Shown: piece by piece, positions 15,097 to 24,176 of the stretch
Position numbering within the stretch: position 1 is the stretch's first letter
Layout: every line of letters starts with the position of its first letter
Assembly (NCBI GenBank): GCA_000751835.1
Contig: CCMQ01000008.1
Span: forward strand, 124,001 to 188,000
Direction: 5' to 3'
Source: Necropsobacter rosorum
Lineage (GTDB): Bacteria; Pseudomonadota; Gammaproteobacteria; Enterobacterales; Pasteurellaceae
Length of the DNA: 64,000 nt
The notes under the pieces: model-generated
What the model was told of the DNA's origin: nothing
Database searches by the model: none
The model's input: only the letters and a program-made list of their open reading frames with translations
Made by a program: the position numbers and the translations under genes

Positions 15097-15651
15097 TTAT
15101 TTATTAATATATTTCACCACTTTCGCAGGCACGCCTGCGACGATGGCATTATCAGGCACATCTTTACTCACCACCGCACCTGCGGCGACAATGGCGTTTT
15201 CGCCCACCGTTACGCCTGCCAAAATGGTGGCGTTTGCACCGATCCAACAGCCTTTTTTCAGATGAACAGGCGAGAGCAACACGCCACGGCGATCTTTCGG
15301 ATTGATTGGGTGATTGACGCTGATAATGTTGGCTCGTGGGGCGATAAGTACGTTGTCTTCAATCACAATACCGCCAAGATCGGTCATCATCACGCCCATA
15401 TTGATAAAAATGTTTTTGCCGAATTGAATATGCCGCCCGAAGTCGCTGTAAAACGGAGGATTGACGACCACGCTTTCATCAAGGGGTTCATTTGTAATTT
15501 CGCTTAATAGAGACCGCACTTGTTCAGGTGTTTTATAGCCATTGTTGAGTTCGGCAATTTTCGGTTGATTTTCGGCGACAATTTGATGAATTTTTTGATA
15601 AATTTGGCTGTTTTCTGCAATAAGTTCGTTGGTTGGATAGGGATTTTTCAT
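15097..15651 (-). CDS. Sugar/maltose O-acetyltransferase family (left-handed beta-helix)
   Basis: The 184-residue protein has an N-terminal Mac-type segment followed by hexapeptide repeats. Landmarks are HIQFGKNIFINMGVMMTDLGGIVIEDNVLIAP, then SVNHPINPKDRRG with the catalytic His, then CWIGANATILAGVTVGENAIVAAGAVVSKDVP. It transfers acetyl from acetyl-CoA to sugars or similar acceptors, probably as a trimer. A Haemophilus-type USS lies inside it at 15513-15521, so the gene has spent time in, or recombined with, a Haemophilus-type USS species. Confidence 0.88.
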   Translation of the reverse strand: MKNPYPTNELIAENSQIYQKIHQIVAENQPKIAELNNGYKTPEQVRSLLSEITNEPLDESVVVNPPFYSDFGRHIQFGKNIFINMGVMMTDLGGIVIEDNVLIAPRANIISVNHPINPKDRRGVLLSPVHLKKGCWIGANATILAGVTVGENAIVAAGAVVSKDVPDNAIVAGVPAKVVKYINK

Positions 15652-15768
15652 TTGGTTTCTCTGTGTAAAGTGGCGGACAATCGTCCACCACGATTATTTT
15701 CCGCATAAATAATGAAATCTCACGCACACCGCCGCTTTCACATTTGGATCGGCGGTGTTGAGTTGCGT

Positions 15769-16878
15769 TCAGTTGAGTTTTGCTTTGAAGAAAGCTTCAA
15801 ACTTGTCATACGGAATTTTGCCGTTTACATCATCGTATAGATCCGTGTGGCTGGCGTTTGGCACGATATACAACTCTTTATCGGTGCTTCCAATCGCTTT
15901 AAATGCGTCTTCGCTGAAATAACGGCTGTGGGCATTTTCGCCGTGAACGATTAACGCAGGCGTTTTCATCTCATTGGCGTATTGCAAAATCGGCATATTG
16001 ATTAAGCCAATCGTCATCGTGGTTGCCCAAGAGCCGTCTGGATTGGAGTTTACCGAACGTGGGTGGAAGCCACGTTTGGTGGTGTAATAATCCGAATAAT
16101 CTTTGATAAATTTTGGCGTATCTTTGGTAATTTGTTCGCCACGCAAATTGTTCGCTGGCAACAGATCCGCATAGCCGTTTTTTGCTGCCGCCCAACGTGC
16201 GTTATTGAGTTCTTGCTTCATTTTGTAGCGAGCGTCTGCGTCCACGCTGTCGTTGTAGCCTTTGGCGGCGACACGGGTCATATCGTACATTGTGCTGGTT
16301 GCCACCGCTTTAATGCGTGTGTCGGTCATCGCCGCATTCAAGGCAAAACCGCCCCAGCCGCAAATGCCCAAAATGCCGATTTTCTCTTGGTTTACTTCGG
16401 GCAAGCTACCTAAAAAATCCACCGCCGCCGAGAAATCTTCGGTGTTAATTTCAGGCGAAGCCATATTGCGTGGCAAGCCCGAACTTTCGCCTGTAAACGA
16501 GCCGTCAAACGCCACCGTGATAAAACCACGTTCCGCCAACGTCTGTGCATACAAGCCTGAAATCTGTTCTTTCACCGCCCCAAACGCCCCCGCCACAGCG
16601 ATTGCGGGTAGCTTTTCGCCTGCTTTAATGCCTTTCGGAAGATACAAATCCGCCGCCAGCGTAATGCCAAAACGGTTTTTAAAGGTAACTTTGCGATGTT
16701 CCACTTTGTCTGATTTTGGGAAAACCTTGTCCCAATTTTGCGTTAATTGAATGCTTTGTGCAGGGATTTCAATCAGGGTTGCATTGCTGCTGTTTTGTGC
16801 GTAACTCATTGTTGTTGCTCCGAATAAAGTTGAACCAAGTAAAAGTGCGGTGGTAATTTGCTTTAATTTAAGTTTCAT
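15769..16878 (-). CDS. Secreted alpha/beta hydrolase with Cys nucleophile motif
   Basis: This 369-residue protein has a Sec signal peptide (about residues 1-27, ending SYAQ). The alpha/beta-hydrolase fold shows an oxyanion region VAGAFGAVKEQ, nucleophile elbow ILGICGWGGFA, ALIVHGENAHSRYF (acid region) and a C-terminal NASHTDLYDD (catalytic His). The elbow holds Cys (GxCxW) where serine hydrolases have GxSxG, as in dienelactone hydrolases. It is divergent from the LysR at 16979, its likely regulator. One GCTACCCGCA copy and one USS lie in the gene. Substrate unknown. Confidence 0.8.
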   Translation of the reverse strand: MKLKLKQITTALLLGSTLFGATTMSYAQNSSNATLIEIPAQSIQLTQNWDKVFPKSDKVEHRKVTFKNRFGITLAADLYLPKGIKAGEKLPAIAVAGAFGAVKEQISGLYAQTLAERGFITVAFDGSFTGESSGLPRNMASPEINTEDFSAAVDFLGSLPEVNQEKIGILGICGWGGFALNAAMTDTRIKAVATSTMYDMTRVAAKGYNDSVDADARYKMKQELNNARWAAAKNGYADLLPANNLRGEQITKDTPKFIKDYSDYYTTKRGFHPRSVNSNPDGSWATTMTIGLINMPILQYANEMKTPALIVHGENAHSRYFSEDAFKAIGSTDKELYIVPNASHTDLYDDVNGKIPYDKFEAFFKAKLN

Positions 16879-16910
16879 TTTTTGCTCCTATGTTACTGAT
16901 GAACATATTG

Positions 16911-16951
16911 TAGAATCGACTTTGTTTTTATAGAATCAATAAATTTAGAAT
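16911..16951. promoter_or_regulatory. TAGAAT direct repeats in the divergent LysR/hydrolase promoter
   Basis: TAGAAT occurs at 16911, 16931 and 16946 in the 100-base gap between the hydrolase (minus) and the LysR gene (plus). Repeated hexamers in this position are typical of regulator sites. It is a candidate binding site for the adjacent LysR protein. Confidence 0.4.
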
Positions 16952-16978
16952 AGACTGTTTGTGTTAAGAGAATAAACA

Positions 16979-17881
16979 ATGGATAAACTCACCGCCATTC
17001 GCTACTTTTGCTTGGCTGCCGATACGCTGAATTTTCGGGAAGTTGCCAATCAGCAAGCCATTTCGCCGTCTGTGATTACCCGTTTAATCAATGAGTTGGA
17101 AGATGAATTAGGCGAACCGCTGTTTAAACGCAACACACGCAACATCAGCCTAACGAGCTTTGGCGAGCAATTTTTGCCGCAAGCCAAACAATGGCTTACC
17201 GACAGCGAAAAGCTGTTTCAGGCAGGTAAAAAAGCGGCGGATTTAGCAGGCGTGGTGCGGATTACCGTGCCTGCGTGGCGAGAAAATGACCGCATCGTCA
17301 GCGAATTGATGACGGCGTTGGAAGCCTATCCCGACATCGTGATTGACTGGCGAGAAGATATGATGAAGCTAGATATGGTGCGAGATCGGATCGACATCGG
17401 CGTGCGTGTTGGGCTGGAAACCAACCCCGATTTTGTGGTGCGAAAAGTGGTGGAAATTGGCGATTTGTTGCTAATTTCGCCGAAATTGCTGGCAAAACTC
17501 GGCAATCCGCAAGATTTGGACGATTTGCAACGCCGTTTTCCGTTTGTTATGCCGATTAACGCCAGTACAGGCAAACCTTGGGCGTTGTATCTCAACGAAC
17601 AAACCACGCTCACGCCACGCAAGCCAGCGTTTTATTCGGTGGACAATTACAGTGCCTTGCAAGTAATTTTGGCAGGCAAAGCGGTCGGCTTAATCAATGA
17701 TTTTCAAGCCAAACCCTATTTAGTAAGCGGCGAATTGGTGCAGCTTTTCCCTGAAATTCAAATCGATAAATGGCAACTTTATCTCTATCGCCCCTATCAA
17801 ACGATTACGCCGCCCAGAGTGCTGAAAGTGTTTGATTTATTGACGGAGATTTTTCGGAAAGTGTTTGGGGAAGGGAAATAG
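16979..17881 (+). CDS. LysR-type transcriptional regulator
   Basis: The 300-residue protein has an N-terminal HTH (LNFREVANQQAISPSVITRLINELEDELGEPLFKRNTRNISLT) and a LysR substrate-binding domain. It is divergent from the secreted hydrolase at 15769 and so probably controls it. It converges with the HXXEE operon, separated by a 39-bp repeated element at 17895. Confidence 0.88.
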   Translation: MDKLTAIRYFCLAADTLNFREVANQQAISPSVITRLINELEDELGEPLFKRNTRNISLTSFGEQFLPQAKQWLTDSEKLFQAGKKAADLAGVVRITVPAWRENDRIVSELMTALEAYPDIVIDWREDMMKLDMVRDRIDIGVRVGLETNPDFVVRKVVEIGDLLLISPKLLAKLGNPQDLDDLQRRFPFVMPINASTGKPWALYLNEQTTLTPRKPAFYSVDNYSALQVILAGKAVGLINDFQAKPYLVSGELVQLFPEIQIDKWQLYLYRPYQTITPPRVLKVFDLLTEIFRKVFGEGK

Positions 17882-17947: not shown

Positions 17948-18604
17948 TTATTTCTCGCCATAAAACCGATCAAACTTCTCCATTTGATACGGCGCGAACG
18001 CATAAGGAGAATTTTTGTCTTCCCACAGTTTCGGAATGAGAATGCGGATAACGCCAACATACCACGCAATCATCAAAAATACCGCTAAAACGTATTCCCA
18101 CCACACGACTAAATTTTGCGTTTCAATCACATAAATGTAGGCAATCATTAGCGGAAAATGCCCCAATAACGAACTTGCCAAACCTGAATTGTATTTGGTT
18201 TTCAACATGTTATTGTTCACAATGCCGTGGATAATCACTTGTGCCACACCGCCGAAAATAATCCCCACCAAGCCGAGCCAAATTTGATCATAAAAAATCA
18301 CAGGCGGCAGATACATTACAAGTGCCGTTCCCCAATTTATCCACAACGCCGACATATTGTTGAGTGGATAGCGGTCGGCGATGTCTGGCGTGCTGTCTTT
18401 CGGAGCAAAAATCGTGTTGGCGAATTTCGGAAATCCGCCTGGAAAGCCAAATTCTTCAAAAAAGTGAAAGAAAATCACCGCCAAATTCAGCAAAGCAATA
18501 ATTTGCAAAACGTGCCAATCGTGCCACGTTGCGAACGTAAAGCCCAAAATCGCCACGCCAATCACGCCGCTTAAATTAACCCAATTATTTAATAAAAATT
18601 TCAT
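17948..18604 (-). CDS. HXXEE domain membrane protein (copy 1)
   Basis: This 218-residue inner-membrane protein has about five or six predicted helices. The family motif is at residues about 47-59: HFFEEFGFPGGFP (His-x-x-Glu-Glu). A second conserved block is QVIIHGIVNNNMLKTKYNSGLAS. The His and Glu residues lie at a helix end and could bind metal or act as a catalytic site. It is the last gene of a three-gene minus-strand operon and is a distant paralogue of the first gene. HXXEE proteins have no established function that I know of. Confidence 0.8.
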   Translation of the reverse strand: MKFLLNNWVNLSGVIGVAILGFTFATWHDWHVLQIIALLNLAVIFFHFFEEFGFPGGFPKFANTIFAPKDSTPDIADRYPLNNMSALWINWGTALVMYLPPVIFYDQIWLGLVGIIFGGVAQVIIHGIVNNNMLKTKYNSGLASSLLGHFPLMIAYIYVIETQNLVVWWEYVLAVFLMIAWYVGVIRILIPKLWEDKNSPYAFAPYQMEKFDRFYGEK

Positions 18605-18619
18605 TGTTTTTTTCCTTGC

Positions 18620-19588
18620 TTAATCAAAATCTCTTGCGCTAGCAATTTCTACAAAACCTTTGCCGATAACCGCTTTTCCTGCAATTGTGCCACGCATTTC
18701 TATTGCCCCTTCAATACAAGGACCGTTTACTTTATCGCCAACTGGCGGAACAATTTCTTGCCCTAAATTCGTGGTTTGGACGCTTAAATCAATGTCCTTT
18801 TCAGGCAGGCTGATGCGCCATTTTGAATGCCATTTACGACCACTTTTTTCGCTTTGCCATAAACCTGTGCCGCTATCAATGATGTCGTGTAAAGGCGCGA
18901 CTGTGTATGTGCCGTCTGAATGCAAAATGGTCAGCCAATCGTAGGCGATTTCGTCTCGTGTACTCCAAAGTGCCAAACAATCGCCATTGTCAAAAGTGGC
19001 GCAAAACCACAACCAGCGCGCCGAACCATTCAACAATCCAGCAACAGGCAACGCCCCCCATTGACGGTCAAACCACGCATTGCCTGAAAATTCATAGGTT
19101 TCTCCGTTTATGGTTAATGTGCCATGCGTAAGCATTTGCGGGAAAGCGTATTCAAAATTGGGAATTTGCGCCCCAAACAGGGGAATATAACCTGTTGAAT
19201 TGTAGGCAAATACGCGACCATTAGATTGGGCGGATAATTGAATGCTGATATTTTTTTGTACACAACTTGCTCTGATAGACATTTGATTATCAGATGTTTG
19301 CCAAACGATATTTGCCGAGCTAAATTCAAAACCGTTTTCGCGTTGTTTAATGTTGCCTGTGTTGGCAATATCAGTAACAAAGCAATCATCGGTAATATCA
19401 ATGACCGAAACGGTGGAGCGTTCTTCGCCTTTGCCACGCGTTACATAATGAAAGAGCAAGCCGAATTCTTTATCGCCGCTTTGCACGTTGGCAATCAAGA
19501 ACCACGAGTCCGCACCAGCCGTTTTGCTATCTAATGTTTTGGGAGCAAGATCGGCAATAGGATTAATAAAAATAGGTAAATTGTTCAT
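18620..19588 (-). CDS. AttH / carotenoid 1,2-hydratase (CrtC)-like lipocalin-type protein
   Basis: In this 322-residue protein the start is ATG 19588, in the upstream pattern shared by all three operon genes (CATTGTTTTTTTCCTT read on the plus strand); a longer upstream extension would run into the previous gene. Recognisable AttH/CrtC features are SWFLIANVQSGDKEFGLLFHYV near the N-terminus, SGNAWFDRQWG in the middle and WLWFCATFDNGDCLALWS. The family forms a double lipocalin-like barrel. CrtC hydrates carotenoids, but no carotenoid gene is nearby, so another hydrophobic substrate is likely. It has no signal peptide. It sits between two HXXEE membrane proteins, suggesting work on a membrane lipid. 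Confidence 0.75.
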   Translation of the reverse strand: MNNLPIFINPIADLAPKTLDSKTAGADSWFLIANVQSGDKEFGLLFHYVTRGKGEERSTVSVIDITDDCFVTDIANTGNIKQRENGFEFSSANIVWQTSDNQMSIRASCVQKNISIQLSAQSNGRVFAYNSTGYIPLFGAQIPNFEYAFPQMLTHGTLTINGETYEFSGNAWFDRQWGALPVAGLLNGSARWLWFCATFDNGDCLALWSTRDEIAYDWLTILHSDGTYTVAPLHDIIDSGTGLWQSEKSGRKWHSKWRISLPEKDIDLSVQTTNLGQEIVPPVGDKVNGPCIEGAIEMRGTIAGKAVIGKGFVEIASARDFD

Positions 19589-19599
19589 TGTTTTTTTCC

Positions 19600-20247
19600 T
19601 TATTTCAGGCGGCAAAGTGCCGTAATTTTTTCGTATTTTTTCAGTTGAATATCGGAAATGGCATAAGGGCTGTTGCGGTTTTTCAATAACTGCACAGGCA
19701 AAATCACACAACTTGCCAACACAAAAATAAAGCCAATCACGCCCCAAAGCCACGTCCACGCCGTTGTTAAGCCGTTTGTGTGAATATAATACAAGTAATA
19801 AATCGCAATCGGCGTGAATAAAAATAAGCTGGTGGCAAGTCCGGGGTTGTACCATGTTTTCAAGGCTTTATTCATTTGAAAACCGTGTCCGAACAGTTGA
19901 AACAAATTAAACAACATCGTGCCAATGCCGAGTGGCAAAAAATCAGGAAAGACAATCGCCAAGCTATAAATAATCCACGCCACATTGTTCACAATCATTG
20001 AAGAATGCGTATTGCCAGGGTAATGCGTAAAATCGTTTTTTTCGCCAAAGGTGGCAATATTCACAATCACTGGCGCACCACCGGGGAAAACGTATTCTTC
20101 AAATTGATGTGCGAAAAGACTTGCCAAACTTGCTAATAAAATCAGTTGAATATGGCTCATTTCAGAACCTAATATCGCCCAAATCACAACGCACAACAAC
20201 ATAAAAAACGGCGTGAAGTTGTACCAATTATTTCGCCAAAAATTCAT
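19600..20247 (-). CDS. HXXEE domain membrane protein (copy 2)
   Basis: This 215-residue inner-membrane protein is the first gene of the operon. The motif HQFEEYVFPGGAP (near residues 47-59) and the block QLFGHGFQMNKALKTWYNPGLATS align with the second HXXEE gene at 17948. The two are clear paralogues and may form a heterodimer or act in sequence. It is divergent from the TetR gene at 20394, with a large inverted repeat between, so it is probably TetR-controlled. Function unknown. Confidence 0.8.
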   Translation of the reverse strand: MNFWRNNWYNFTPFFMLLCVVIWAILGSEMSHIQLILLASLASLFAHQFEEYVFPGGAPVIVNIATFGEKNDFTHYPGNTHSSMIVNNVAWIIYSLAIVFPDFLPLGIGTMLFNLFQLFGHGFQMNKALKTWYNPGLATSLFLFTPIAIYYLYYIHTNGLTTAWTWLWGVIGFIFVLASCVILPVQLLKNRNSPYAISDIQLKKYEKITALCRLK

Positions 20248-20326
20248 TGTTTTTTCCTTGTTTGTTTAAAGTGCGGTCAGTATAAGCAAAAAATTTTCTC
20301 AAAAATACCGCCAATTTCGCTCTGTT

Positions 20327-20376
20327 TTGTTAAGATAAGCAGACAAATTTTTAAATCTGTATCGTTATCTCAACAA
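20327..20376. promoter_or_regulatory. Candidate TetR operator for the HXXEE operon
   Basis: TTGTTAAGATAA (20327-20338) and TTATCTCAACAA (20365-20376) form an inverted repeat with 11 of 12 arm bases matching. They lie between the divergent TetR and HXXEE genes and end 17 bases before the TetR ATG. The 26-base spacing would suit two operator halves on one face of the helix, or RNA structure. Confidence 0.55.
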
Positions 20377-20393
20377 ACAAGGTCAAAATTGTT

Positions 20394-20945
20394 ATGACAG
20401 AAAAACAAGATTTGCGTGTGGTTCGCACGCATAAAATGATACGAGCGGCGTTAATTCAGCTTTTGAAAACACAGGAATTTGACAACATCGCCGTGCAAGA
20501 TATTGTGGATTTGGCGATGGTCAATCGTGCCACGTTTTACAAATATTATTCGGGCAAAAGCGACTTGGCAGGCGTGATGATTGCAGAATTTAAGGCGAAT
20601 TATCAGGCGACGTTGAAAGCACGTTTTGCGGGTAGCCTTGATGTGCAAACGCTGATGAATACCGCCATTCCAGCCCTTTACGAACAGCGTGAATTGATTT
20701 TGGCATTGTGGAAAATCAAAACGAAACGGCATCATTTGTGGGACGATATGTATTTGATGATTAAGCAAAATTTTATCCATCATCAACAAACGAAATTCCC
20801 CAACCGCAATTTTGACTATCAAGGCGAAATACTTGCTACGATGATTTTGAAAACGGCACACTATTATTTTTCGCAGGATTTGCCGATACCCATCAAGCAG
20901 GTTTGGGCGGAAATTGGGGAGATGTTGGCGGCGGTGCAAAATTAG
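20394..20945 (+). CDS. TetR/AcrR-type transcriptional regulator
   Basis: In this 183-residue protein the TetR HTH is at residues about 10-57 (FDNIAVQDIVDLAMVNRATFYKYYSGKSDL), followed by an all-helical ligand domain. It is divergent from the HXXEE-AttH-HXXEE operon and the only regulator beside it, so probably its repressor. A GCTACCCGCA motif (complement, 20626) lies in the gene, and an exact DUS follows three bases after its stop. Confidence 0.87.
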   Translation: MTEKQDLRVVRTHKMIRAALIQLLKTQEFDNIAVQDIVDLAMVNRATFYKYYSGKSDLAGVMIAEFKANYQATLKARFAGSLDVQTLMNTAIPALYEQRELILALWKIKTKRHHLWDDMYLMIKQNFIHHQQTKFPNRNFDYQGEILATMILKTAHYYFSQDLPIPIKQVWAEIGEMLAAVQN

Positions 20946-21084: not shown

Positions 21085-21996
21085 CTATTTTTGTTCCCCC
21101 AATCTCTCCGCCAAAAACTTCACCAGCAAATTGATCTTCACAATCTGCCGACTGCCTGCGGGGTAAACGGCGTAAATTGCGTCGTCGGCGGGGTTGGCGG
21201 TGGGTTGGATTTGCCAGTCGTTTAAGACGCTCACGAGTTTGCCGTTTGCCAGTTCGTCTTTAATCAACCAATCGGGCAAGTGAGCGATGCCGATGCCTGC
21301 GAGTGCGTATTCACGCAAAATTTCGGTGCTGTTGCCGAGCAAACTGCCTTTAACGCTAACCATTTGGCTTGACGTTTCAGGCTGCTTGAAATGCCAGCGT
21401 TGGGTGTAGCCACGATAGTAAAACAGCAGACAGTTGTGGCTTTGTAGGTCGTTTGGCGTTTGTGGTTCTCCCTTACGAGCCAAGTATTCAGGGCTGGCAC
21501 AAAGCAGGCGGCGTTGTGGGGTAAGGCGTTTGGCGATGAGATTTGGGTCGTCCACTTTGCCGAGTCGCACCGCCAAATCAAAGCGTTCCGCTTGCAAATC
21601 TACATAATCGTCCGACGCCCAAATTTCAAGCCTAATTTTCGGATATTGCAAGGCAAATTCCGTCAAAATCGGGGCAAGCACCGATGAGCCGTAGGAATGC
21701 GAAAAGGTAATGCGGAGCTTGCCTTGCGGTTGATCCAGTTCCAGTTTGAGCGACAAATTCGCTGCGTCCAAATCGTCCAAAATCGGGCGAGTGCTTTGCA
21801 AATAAAGTATTCCAGCGTTGGTGAGCGAAATCTGCCGTGTGGAGCGGCTAAACAACGCCACGCCGAGTTCGTTTTCAAGGCTGTCAATTTGGCGTGTAAC
21901 GGACGACACCGCCACGCCAAGTTGCTGTGCCGTGCGGCTAAAACTGCCCGTGTCGGCGACGTGGTGGAAAATGTTTAGGGCGGAGAAGTAGTCCAT
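21085..21996 (-). CDS. LysR-type transcriptional regulator
   Basis: This 303-residue protein has a winged HTH (SFSRTAQQLGVAVSSVTRQIDSLENELGVALFSRSTRQISLT) and a LysR effector domain of the CrgA/DsdC-like type. It is divergent from the luciferase-like gene at 22144, with a good promoter between, and is the likely regulator of that three-gene operon. A near-DUS TTCAGGCTGCTTGAA lies inside the gene at 21376-21390. Confidence 0.88.
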   Translation of the reverse strand: MDYFSALNIFHHVADTGSFSRTAQQLGVAVSSVTRQIDSLENELGVALFSRSTRQISLTNAGILYLQSTRPILDDLDAANLSLKLELDQPQGKLRITFSHSYGSSVLAPILTEFALQYPKIRLEIWASDDYVDLQAERFDLAVRLGKVDDPNLIAKRLTPQRRLLCASPEYLARKGEPQTPNDLQSHNCLLFYYRGYTQRWHFKQPETSSQMVSVKGSLLGNSTEILREYALAGIGIAHLPDWLIKDELANGKLVSVLNDWQIQPTANPADDAIYAVYPAGSRQIVKINLLVKFLAERLGEQK

Positions 21997-22050
21997 TTTG
22001 GTTGTCCTTGTTTTGCGAAAAATGCAAAAGAATTTCTAAATTTCCCCATA

Positions 22051-22079
22051 TTATCATTTTAAACAGAAAAATCTATACT
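22051..22079 (+). promoter_or_regulatory. Promoter of the luciferase-like operon
   Basis: TTATCA (22051-22056), a 17-base spacer and TATACT (22074-22079) lie 65 bases before the ATG at 22144 and downstream of the divergent LysR start, where an activator would act. Confidence 0.55.
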
Positions 22080-22101
22080 GCACCACATCAGAACACGACC
22101 C

Positions 22102-22111
22102 ACAAGCGGTC
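22102..22111 (+). repeat. Actinobacillus pleuropneumoniae-type USS, full 10-mer
   Basis: ACAAGCGGTC is an exact copy of the uptake signal of the A. pleuropneumoniae branch. It lies in the leader before the luciferase-like gene, followed by a T-run. The chromosome around this region uses AAGTGCGGT. Confidence 0.7.
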
Positions 22112-22143
22112 GGATTTTTTACTCAATTTACAAGGATTTCAAA

Positions 22144-23196
22144 ATGACAAAATTAAACGTACCTAACCTTTCTGTACTCGGTCAAGACAACAGCCAACTG
22201 TTCCACGAAAACAACGCCGCCAACACCAAAGCGGATTTGCCTGCCCATTTGGCGAATCACAAAGCGTTTTCGCAAGTGTTCCAAAAAGATAAATTGACGC
22301 TTGGTTTGATTGCACCGTTCAAGGGCTACGCTGATACGCCGATTCCGAATGTAGAAGATTTGGGCGATGTGGCGGAACTCGCTGAAAAATTGGGATTTTC
22401 TGCTCTTTGGTTGCGTGATGTGCCGTTTTACGACCCGAATTTTGGCGATGTGGGGCAAGGGCTTGATCCGTTCGTCAGCCTAGGCTATTTGGCGGCTCGC
22501 ACCAAAACGATTGCACTTGGTACGGCAGGCATTGTGTCGCCGCTGCGTGAGCCGATTCATATTGCCAAAAGCTCGGCAAGCGTGGACGCATTAACCAACG
22601 GTCGCTTTATTCTCGGGCTTTCCAGCGGCGACCGTCCTGTGGAATATCCTGCGTTCAAAAAAGAATTTGGTAATCGTGCCGAACGCTTCCGTGAAAGCTG
22701 GGATTTAATCCGCACGCTGACCAATCCGCAAACGCACGATTTTCCTGTGTTTAACGGCAATCACTACGGCAATTTGACGGGCAACATTGACGTTACGCCG
22801 AAAGTCAAAACCGCCTTGCCAATGGTGGCGATTGGTCGGGCAAGACAGGAATTGGATTGGCTGGCGAACACGGCGGACGGCTGGATTTGGCACGGCGTGA
22901 ACCCGAAAGACACGAAAAACATCGTGCAAACGCTCGCCGAACTCAACCAAGACAACAGCTGGCATCCGTTCGGCTACGCCAACTTTGTGGAACTTGCCGA
23001 AAATCCAAATGAGCCTGCGAAATTGTTTAACAACATTTACTTGCGTGGCGGTGCAAACGGCTTGTTGGAGTACTGGCAAGAGCAGAAAGAACAAGGGCTG
23101 GCACACGTTACCGTCAATCTTAAACCGACCGAACGCCCAGCGGCGGAAACCTTGCAGGATTTGGCGGAGAATGTGTTGGCGAAGTTGAATAAATAG
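22144..23196 (+). CDS. LLM-class (luciferase-like) flavin-dependent oxidoreductase
   Basis: The 350-residue TIM-barrel protein carries bacterial-luciferase-family motifs: LTLGLIAPFKGY at the first strand, VAELAEKLGFSALWLRDVPFYDPN, TKTIALGTAGIVSP, and GRFILGLSSGDRP for flavin and phosphate binding. It probably uses reduced FMN supplied by a partner. The azoreductase-like flavoenzyme two genes downstream is a candidate. The operon order is LLM, NTF2-like, azoreductase-like. Substrate unknown. Confidence 0.85.
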   Translation: MTKLNVPNLSVLGQDNSQLFHENNAANTKADLPAHLANHKAFSQVFQKDKLTLGLIAPFKGYADTPIPNVEDLGDVAELAEKLGFSALWLRDVPFYDPNFGDVGQGLDPFVSLGYLAARTKTIALGTAGIVSPLREPIHIAKSSASVDALTNGRFILGLSSGDRPVEYPAFKKEFGNRAERFRESWDLIRTLTNPQTHDFPVFNGNHYGNLTGNIDVTPKVKTALPMVAIGRARQELDWLANTADGWIWHGVNPKDTKNIVQTLAELNQDNSWHPFGYANFVELAENPNEPAKLFNNIYLRGGANGLLEYWQEQKEQGLAHVTVNLKPTERPAAETLQDLAENVLAKLNK

Positions 23197-23282
23197 GTGG
23201 AATAAATAGCGAAAAGTGCGGTCGTTTTTTGAGAATTTTGCAAATTTTTCAAAAATCCGACCGCCTTATTTAAGGAAGAAAA

Positions 23283-24176
23283 ATGATCAGAACAATACTC
23301 AAAAACCGTTTTACCGATTTTTTAAATGTTTGGACGAACGATAACGAAGAATTGCCTTTTTTAAGCGAAAACGTGCAACTGCACAATTTTTCAGGCAGCT
23401 TTTTTGGCAAAGAAGACGTTTTAACCCAACTTCAAAACGAGCGTTCGGCATTGCCAATTAAAGTGCAATACACCAATCTTTACATCGCTGGCAAACACGA
23501 CAAAGCGGCGGTGAGTGCCTATATCTACGGCAAACTGGGCGAACACAGCTTTTACGGCGTGTTGCTGTTGAAACTCTCCAAGCAACAAGATTGGCAAATT
23601 GACGAAATCCGCAGCACGCACGCCTTAAACGGCAATGCGTTGGCAAAACATTGGCTAAACGGCAAACAGGTGCGCCGAGATTGGCAGCCTGCCGACCCAA
23701 CACGCCCGATTGTCAGCGAATTAGACAGCCCTTGGCATTTGTTCCCCAATAACGAATTTCACGCCGAAACCGCCGAAGCGCAAATCGCCGAGCTGTACGC
23801 CAAATACGCTTGGGGCTTGGATTTTGCCGATTTCGCCTTGCTTGCCAGCGTGTTTGACGAAAATATCACATCGGATTTAACGCCAATGGGCAAACGCCAG
23901 ACCCTGCGTGAAACCTTTGGGCAGTTGCGAGCTTTTCGCTTGGCGGCAGGCGAATTGTTCCACGCCACCGAAGTGCTGGAAATCACGCAGATTGACGACA
24001 AACACGCCGCCGCTAAACTCGGTCGCATTATCCCTGAACAAACGCATACCGAAAACGGCGAAAAATTGTTCGGTGCGTATTACGATGTGGAAATCGTTAG
24101 AGATGCAAACGGCAATTTCAAATACCAAAAATTTGATTACCACCCACAATGGTTTATGCTTCACGAAGAACAATAA
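23283..24176 (+). CDS. Two-domain SnoaL/NTF2-like protein
   Basis: In this 297-residue protein each half has an NTF2-like pattern. The N-terminal half has HNFSGSFFGKEDVLTQL and WQIDEIRSTHALNG. The C-terminal half has IAELYAKYAWGLDFADFALLASVFDENI, then ATEVLEITQIDDKHAAAKLGRI and NFKYQKFDYHPQW. The second domain resembles aromatic-dioxygenase-beta or steroid-isomerase-type small barrels. The gene lies between the LLM and azoreductase-like genes with short gaps, so one operon. A USS and T-run precede it. Function unknown, perhaps isomerase or hydratase of the LLM product. Confidence 0.7.
   Translation: MIRTILKNRFTDFLNVWTNDNEELPFLSENVQLHNFSGSFFGKEDVLTQLQNERSALPIKVQYTNLYIAGKHDKAAVSAYIYGKLGEHSFYGVLLLKLSKQQDWQIDEIRSTHALNGNALAKHWLNGKQVRRDWQPADPTRPIVSELDSPWHLFPNNEFHAETAEAQIAELYAKYAWGLDFADFALLASVFDENITSDLTPMGKRQTLRETFGQLRAFRLAAGELFHATEVLEITQIDDKHAAAKLGRIIPEQTHTENGEKLFGAYYDVEIVRDANGNFKYQKFDYHPQWFMLHEEQ

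Follow-up and report, generated by a model that had tools for sequence, protein, structure and literature searches.

MucF of Streptococcus mutans, named an 'HXXEE domain-containing protein' (PMC9112991), is a membrane protein that cleaves the N-acyl chain from the antibiotic reutericyclin by hydrolysis (PMC10161427). This deacylation was demonstrated in vivo as well as in E. coli lysate, and all 16 further MucF homologues selected for testing were active, some of them from organisms that do not produce reutericyclin (PMC10161427). The initial annotation of the locus described here had regarded HXXEE proteins as lacking an established function, a view that is overturned by the demonstrated reutericyclin deacylase activity of this family member.

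Two other described systems are relevant. In DAPG-producing Pseudomonas, PhlG takes an acetyl group off DAPG, and its gene, phlG, is under the control of the TetR repressor PhlH, which DAPG releases on binding (PMC7062750, PMC8003664). Like reutericyclin, DAPG is a proton ionophore. Kievitone hydratase detoxifies a prenylated phytoalexin and thereby defends fungi (PMC5805349). In the related CrtC of Rubrivivax, an Asp and a Trp-x-Trp motif (D268, W283, and W285) are important (PMC12402844).

The window analysed in this study is a stretch of 64,000 nucleotides from Necropsobacter rosorum. Its minus strand carries a three-gene operon that begins with HX2 (19600..20247, 215 aa), an HXXEE-family membrane protein recognized by PF13787 and its orthologues. 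The second gene encodes an AttH/CrtC/kievitone-hydratase-like double lipocalin (18620..19588, 322 aa; PF07143 and PF17186), for which an ORF call of 411 aa was over-long, the operon ATG lying at 19588. The third gene encodes HX1 (17948..18604, 218 aa), an HXXEE-family membrane protein assigned from PF13787, orthologues, and hydropathy, with about six hydrophobic segments. The intergenic gaps are 11 bases between HX2 and the AttH-like gene and 15 bases between the AttH-like gene and HX1. A divergent gene on the plus strand (20394..20945) encodes a TetR-family regulator (TetR_N, PF00440, 26.8 bits), a predicted substrate-sensing repressor. The gene arrangement, coordinates, and gaps of the initial annotation were thus reproduced, including the TetR gene upstream. 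In a whole-genome profile search, HX1, HX2, and the AttH-like protein were the only HXXEE and Lipocalin_9 matches of the genome.

The promoter region also contains a Pasteurellaceae-type DNA-uptake core, AAGTGCGGT, at 20269..20277 on the plus strand. This core, which we take to be of the Haemophilus type, occurs 43 times in the window compared to 0.5 expected copies, and the genome is Pasteurellaceae-like. The flanks of the cassette (15097-17881 and 21085-24176) contain LysR genes, an alpha/beta hydrolase, an acetyltransferase, a luciferase-like monooxygenase (TIGR03571), and a SnoaL-like gene. The LysR/hydrolase/acetyltransferase block also occurs in the vicinity of another HXXEE subtype in G031 (L054); in G045 (L055) this holds for the hydrolase and acetyltransferase.

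HX1 and HX2 scored 47.9 and 53.1 bits against PF13787 (Pfam cut-off 25), carry the motifs HFFEEFGFPGGFP and HQFEEYVFPGGAP, and are 34% identical to each other, which bears out their description as two paralogues around an AttH/CrtC-like gene. The conserved residues were analyzed by aligning 18 HXXEE proteins, drawn from three phyla, with identities down to 16% and both window copies included. H47, E50, E51, H121, and G136 were invariant and N87 was nearly so; both window proteins possess the H-x-x-E-E motif and the second conserved His (H121). The expected conservation of His and Glu residues was therefore found, and this set is consistent with a His/Glu hydrolase or a metal site. HX1 and HX2 are predicted to be deacylases or amidohydrolases. 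An AlphaFold2 model of HX2, built from just two sequences (both of them window copies), reached a pLDDT of 41, a confidence too low to place the His and Glu residues relative to one another.

The kinship of HX1 and HX2 to MucF was judged by family membership and motif. Like MucF, they are HXXEE (PF13787) integral membrane proteins adjoining TetR genes, and outside reutericyclin producers MucF also occurs by itself as a detoxification gene. Unlike the MucF system, the window cassette has no NRPS/PKS genes in view beside it, and two divergent HXXEE copies share one operon with an AttH-like gene. Among distant HXXEE genes, that of a Paenibacillus plasmid follows a TetR gene, that of a Raoultella plasmid follows an ABC efflux operon, and that of G713 lies, as read by eye, near an apparent choloylglycine-hydrolase-type amidase gene. 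The phage search found no HXXEE gene. The viral-contig search found one frameshifted copy, close to the end of a prophage-like contig (L071 3335-3993), and no AttH-like protein. A kinship between HXXEE and CruF proteins was rejected (hhalign probability 1.7%).

The AttH-like protein scored above the cut-offs for both lipocalin domains (CrtC 45.3 bits, Lipocalin_9 48.7 bits). Its closest PDB relative by sequence was 7a0q (E 6.7e-7, residues 28-316), which the structure library names as the kievitone hydratase of Nectria haematococca. Foldseek also placed 7a0t/7a0q and 2ich at the top, to be read as weak support given that the query was a two-sequence model with a pLDDT of 40. The match to kievitone hydratase (7a0q/7a0t) is a near full-length double lipocalin with DRQW and Trp-x-Trp motifs. 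However, the fungal enzyme is secreted and glycosylated, whereas the window protein has no signal sequence and is distantly similar only. The AttH protein of the Agrobacterium att region and NE1406 (2ich) share its Pfam domains and fold, but the window gene adjoins HXXEE genes and is not accompanied by ABC transporter genes.

In an alignment of 37 sequences, two of which are duplicate copies of the window gene, W172, D174, W177, and W194 were invariant and W192 was 97% conserved. The D174...W192-x-W194 pattern resembles D268, W283, and W285 of the Rubrivivax enzyme, a mapping by spacing only, and the D...W-x-W spacing is 18/20 here and, as in the Rubrivivax enzyme, 15/17 in most homologues. 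The protein is a predicted hydratase or acid-base enzyme. Hydropathy indicated neither a signal sequence nor a hydrophobic or TM segment, so that it is predicted to be cytosolic. Together with the conserved D174, W192, and W194, this makes the previously proposed role as a soluble catalyst probable. The protein might instead be a non-catalytic lipocalin carrier that delivers a hydrophobic molecule to the HXXEE enzymes or takes it up from them. The lipocalin fold would suit such a role, as would an AttH relative that shares an operon with ABC transporter genes on a Rhizobium plasmid. We consider this very improbable, given that the Asp and Trp residues that would serve in catalysis vary little or not at all and that the nearest relative for which both structure and function are known is an enzyme.

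A role as carotenoid 1,2-hydratase was rejected because the genome lacks a carotenoid synthase. The whole-genome search for phytoene/squalene synthase (SQS_PSY) was negative; the same search was positive in 7 of 14 control genomes. Among other AttH relatives, the genome-contig collection contained one distant locus, and no HXXEE gene was detected in flanks of about 1.5 kb at the AttH-relative loci of other Gammaproteobacteria. In a Syntrophaceae MAG (JAHDKI010000023.1, L003 5377-7572), a single ORF apparently joins a CrtC/AttH-like double lipocalin to a polyprenyl-synthase-like domain, as read by eye.

The intergenic region between HX2 and the TetR gene contains an inverted repeat (20312-20391). 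Its existence had been noted earlier with 12-bp arms; the arms are in fact 39 nt long and 74% complementary, and the repeat contains a conserved 34-bp palindromic core, GATAAGCAGACAAATTTTTAAATCTGTATCGTTA, at 20334..20367 on the plus strand. This predicted TetR operator was assigned by consensus match and recurrence. It is 3 mismatches from the family consensus GATAASNATACAAAWTTTNAAATTTGTATTGTTA, with 0 matches expected in shuffles. At up to 3 mismatches the consensus has one site in the window, and a slightly shortened form has one site in the genome. Among 140 genomes, only four (G000, G100, G101, and G002) carried the shortened form, which lay at TetR-paralogue loci and upstream of the HX2-HX1 pair of G100; the reversed control pattern occurred 0 times.

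A weight matrix built from seven sites scored 29.7 and 30.5 upstream of the G088 and G055 HXXEE operons, whose sites were left out of those seven. The scores at loci with other HXXEE subtypes were at most 7.6, the next best site in the 64-kb window scored 2.8, and 20 shuffled versions of a 15-kb locus reached 7.0 at best. The predicted operator recurs in Pasteurellaceae at TetR-AttH, TetR-199aa-CrtC-like, HX2-HX1, and HXXEE-MBL loci. A palindrome between the regulator and its presumed target, common to relatives, is also the arrangement of PhlH/phlG-type modules. A promoter-consensus scan performed no better than shuffles. In G002, an operator-linked HXXEE gene of another subtype is followed by a metallo-beta-lactamase-fold protein (Lactamase_B_2; L053 7013-9023).

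The genes beside relatives of the window TetR (40-82% identity) are candidate targets. They encode a PF00144 protein of the serine beta-lactamase/esterase family (L111), metallo-beta-lactamase-fold hydrolases at five loci (L116-L120), alpha/beta hydrolases (L121), PhlG-type DAPG hydrolases (L122 and L126), an ABC exporter (L123), and an MFS pump (L124). The cassette resembles PhlH-phlG, in which an intergenic operator precedes a hydrolase of an acylated proton ionophore, in its predicted TetR repressor and intergenic operator before putative hydrolase genes, and relatives of its TetR adjoin PhlG-type genes. It differs in that its enzymes belong to other families and that it has no producer cluster. 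The two PhlG loci showed no convincing copy of the operator (weight-matrix scores 6.7 and 10.6), so the PhlG argument consists of TetR kinship and adjacency. Elsewhere in the genome no PhlG-type gene was matched, and control genomes were likewise without a match. In three genera, members of this TetR clade or copies of the operator adjoin a protein family without a Pfam match, whose members are about 200-247 aa long and 22-33% identical to each other (L050 12374-12973, L057 8186-8929, and L125 3696-4370, all on the minus strand).

CruF-like PF04240 proteins are encoded divergently from Pasteurellaceae TetR relatives of 57-60% identity (L114 5456-6283 and L115 3598-4425). Both known families of carotenoid hydratases, CrtC-like and CruF-like, therefore occur beside one TetR clade. 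This association could indicate that the three proteins modify one of the cell's own membrane lipids, quinones, or polyprenyl compounds, as could the carotenoid 1,2-hydratases in the superfamily of the AttH-like protein and the apparent polyprenyl-synthase domain of the distant L003 relative. We regard such endogenous modification as unlikely. The genome lacks phytoene/squalene synthase, no lipid-synthesis gene was seen at the loci of TetR relatives, and these relatives adjoin antibiotic hydrolases and pumps. The earlier proposal was divided by these results: a single TetR-controlled unit with a hydrophobic substrate stood, and modification or export of a membrane lipid did not, because the regulator's relatives adjoin antibiotic-degrading enzymes and efflux pumps with no lipid-synthesis gene travelling along.

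The patchy distribution of the cassette is likewise unlike that of a core lipid pathway. AttH matches (E <= 0.001) were found in 2 of 140 family genomes and HXXEE matches in 12 of 140. The order HXXEE-AttH-HXXEE was present in the window only (1/140). G100, of the same genus, and G055, of another genus, each have an intact HX2-HX1 pair that lacks AttH, at 53-64% identity: HX1 orthologues are 63-64% identical in G100 and G055, and HX2 orthologues are 53-58% identical in G055, G100, and G101. G100 also has an intact AttH gene alone beside a shortened TetR gene (L049).

In G101, of the same genus, one locus comprises a TetR gene, an AttH remnant, an intact HX2, and an HX1 remnant. The AttH remnant corresponds to the first 80 residues and is 90% identical to the G100 AttH. 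A second locus has a TetR gene with an HX2 remnant, and a third has a TetR gene with an AttH remnant. These loci indicate that in this genus the TetR gene and AttH are associated with the HXXEE pair, in varying order. Thus, the exact gene order was not conserved outside the strain, and the association of TetR, operator, AttH, and HXXEE pair was, in rearranged form. The three decaying copies of the module in this sister species (L052 6416-8567, L112 3554-4690, and L113 4248-5517) suggest relaxed selection there, and this decay also speaks against a core lipid function.

An inducible detoxification cassette, derepressed from TetR and directed against hydrophobic acylated and/or prenylated antimicrobials, accounts for these observations better than a membrane-lipid pathway, and we assign this reading a probability of about 0.58. 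The kinship to antibiotic-deacylating and phytoalexin-disarming enzymes, combined with a dedicated repressor, makes an antimicrobial-destroying kit the most likely function. TetR bound to the palindrome between its own gene and HX2 would keep the operon off. A hydrophobic antimicrobial entering the membrane would bind TetR and release it. Candidate substrates are acylated and/or prenylated enolic acids or phenols of the reutericyclin, diacetylphloroglucinol, or kievitone type. HX1 and HX2, as membrane-embedded His/Glu hydrolases, would remove the acyl group as MucF does. The AttH-like protein would hydrate a prenyl or alkene group, as kievitone hydratase does, or perform a related acid-base conversion, and the products would be more polar and harmless. 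This specific two-step chemistry is less certain than detoxification in general. Furthermore, the HXXEE pairs of G100 and G055 have no AttH gene next to them, so the enzymes need not act jointly on one molecule.

The same proteins might instead degrade the acylated signals of neighbours, such as acyl-homoserine lactones or similar compounds. Five TetR relatives adjoin metallo-beta-lactamase-fold hydrolases, whose superfamily includes known lactonases, and N-deacylation of the MucF type would presumably inactivate AHLs. The alpha/beta hydrolase near the cassette weakly resembles the AHL lactonase UilS, but its 64 bits are below the cut-off of 400, and no match reached a quorum-quenching cut-off. 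Because the kievitone-hydratase-like, PhlG, and efflux partners suit toxins better than signals, signal interference appears quite unlikely.

Detoxification in the window may be one case of a wider arrangement, which we propose only tentatively and at well below even odds. The Pasteurellaceae TetR clade would run a mix-and-match defence against acylated and prenylated proton-ionophore natural products, combining related operators with HXXEE deacylases, kievitone-hydratase-like or CruF-like hydratases, metallo-hydrolases, or efflux genes. In the window, two deacylases and a prenyl hydratase would act sequentially on one molecule. To our knowledge, no described bacterial resistance system couples a prenyl hydratase with MucF-type deacylation.

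If the detoxification reading is true, HXXEE proteins would no longer be confined to the reutericyclin biology of Gram-positive bacteria but would also belong to an inducible operon in the Gram-negative Pasteurellaceae. A bacterial AttH/CrtC-like protein would gain a testable role in a genome without carotenoid synthesis. Furthermore, the ligand of the defined operator would name the natural products that these bacteria meet.
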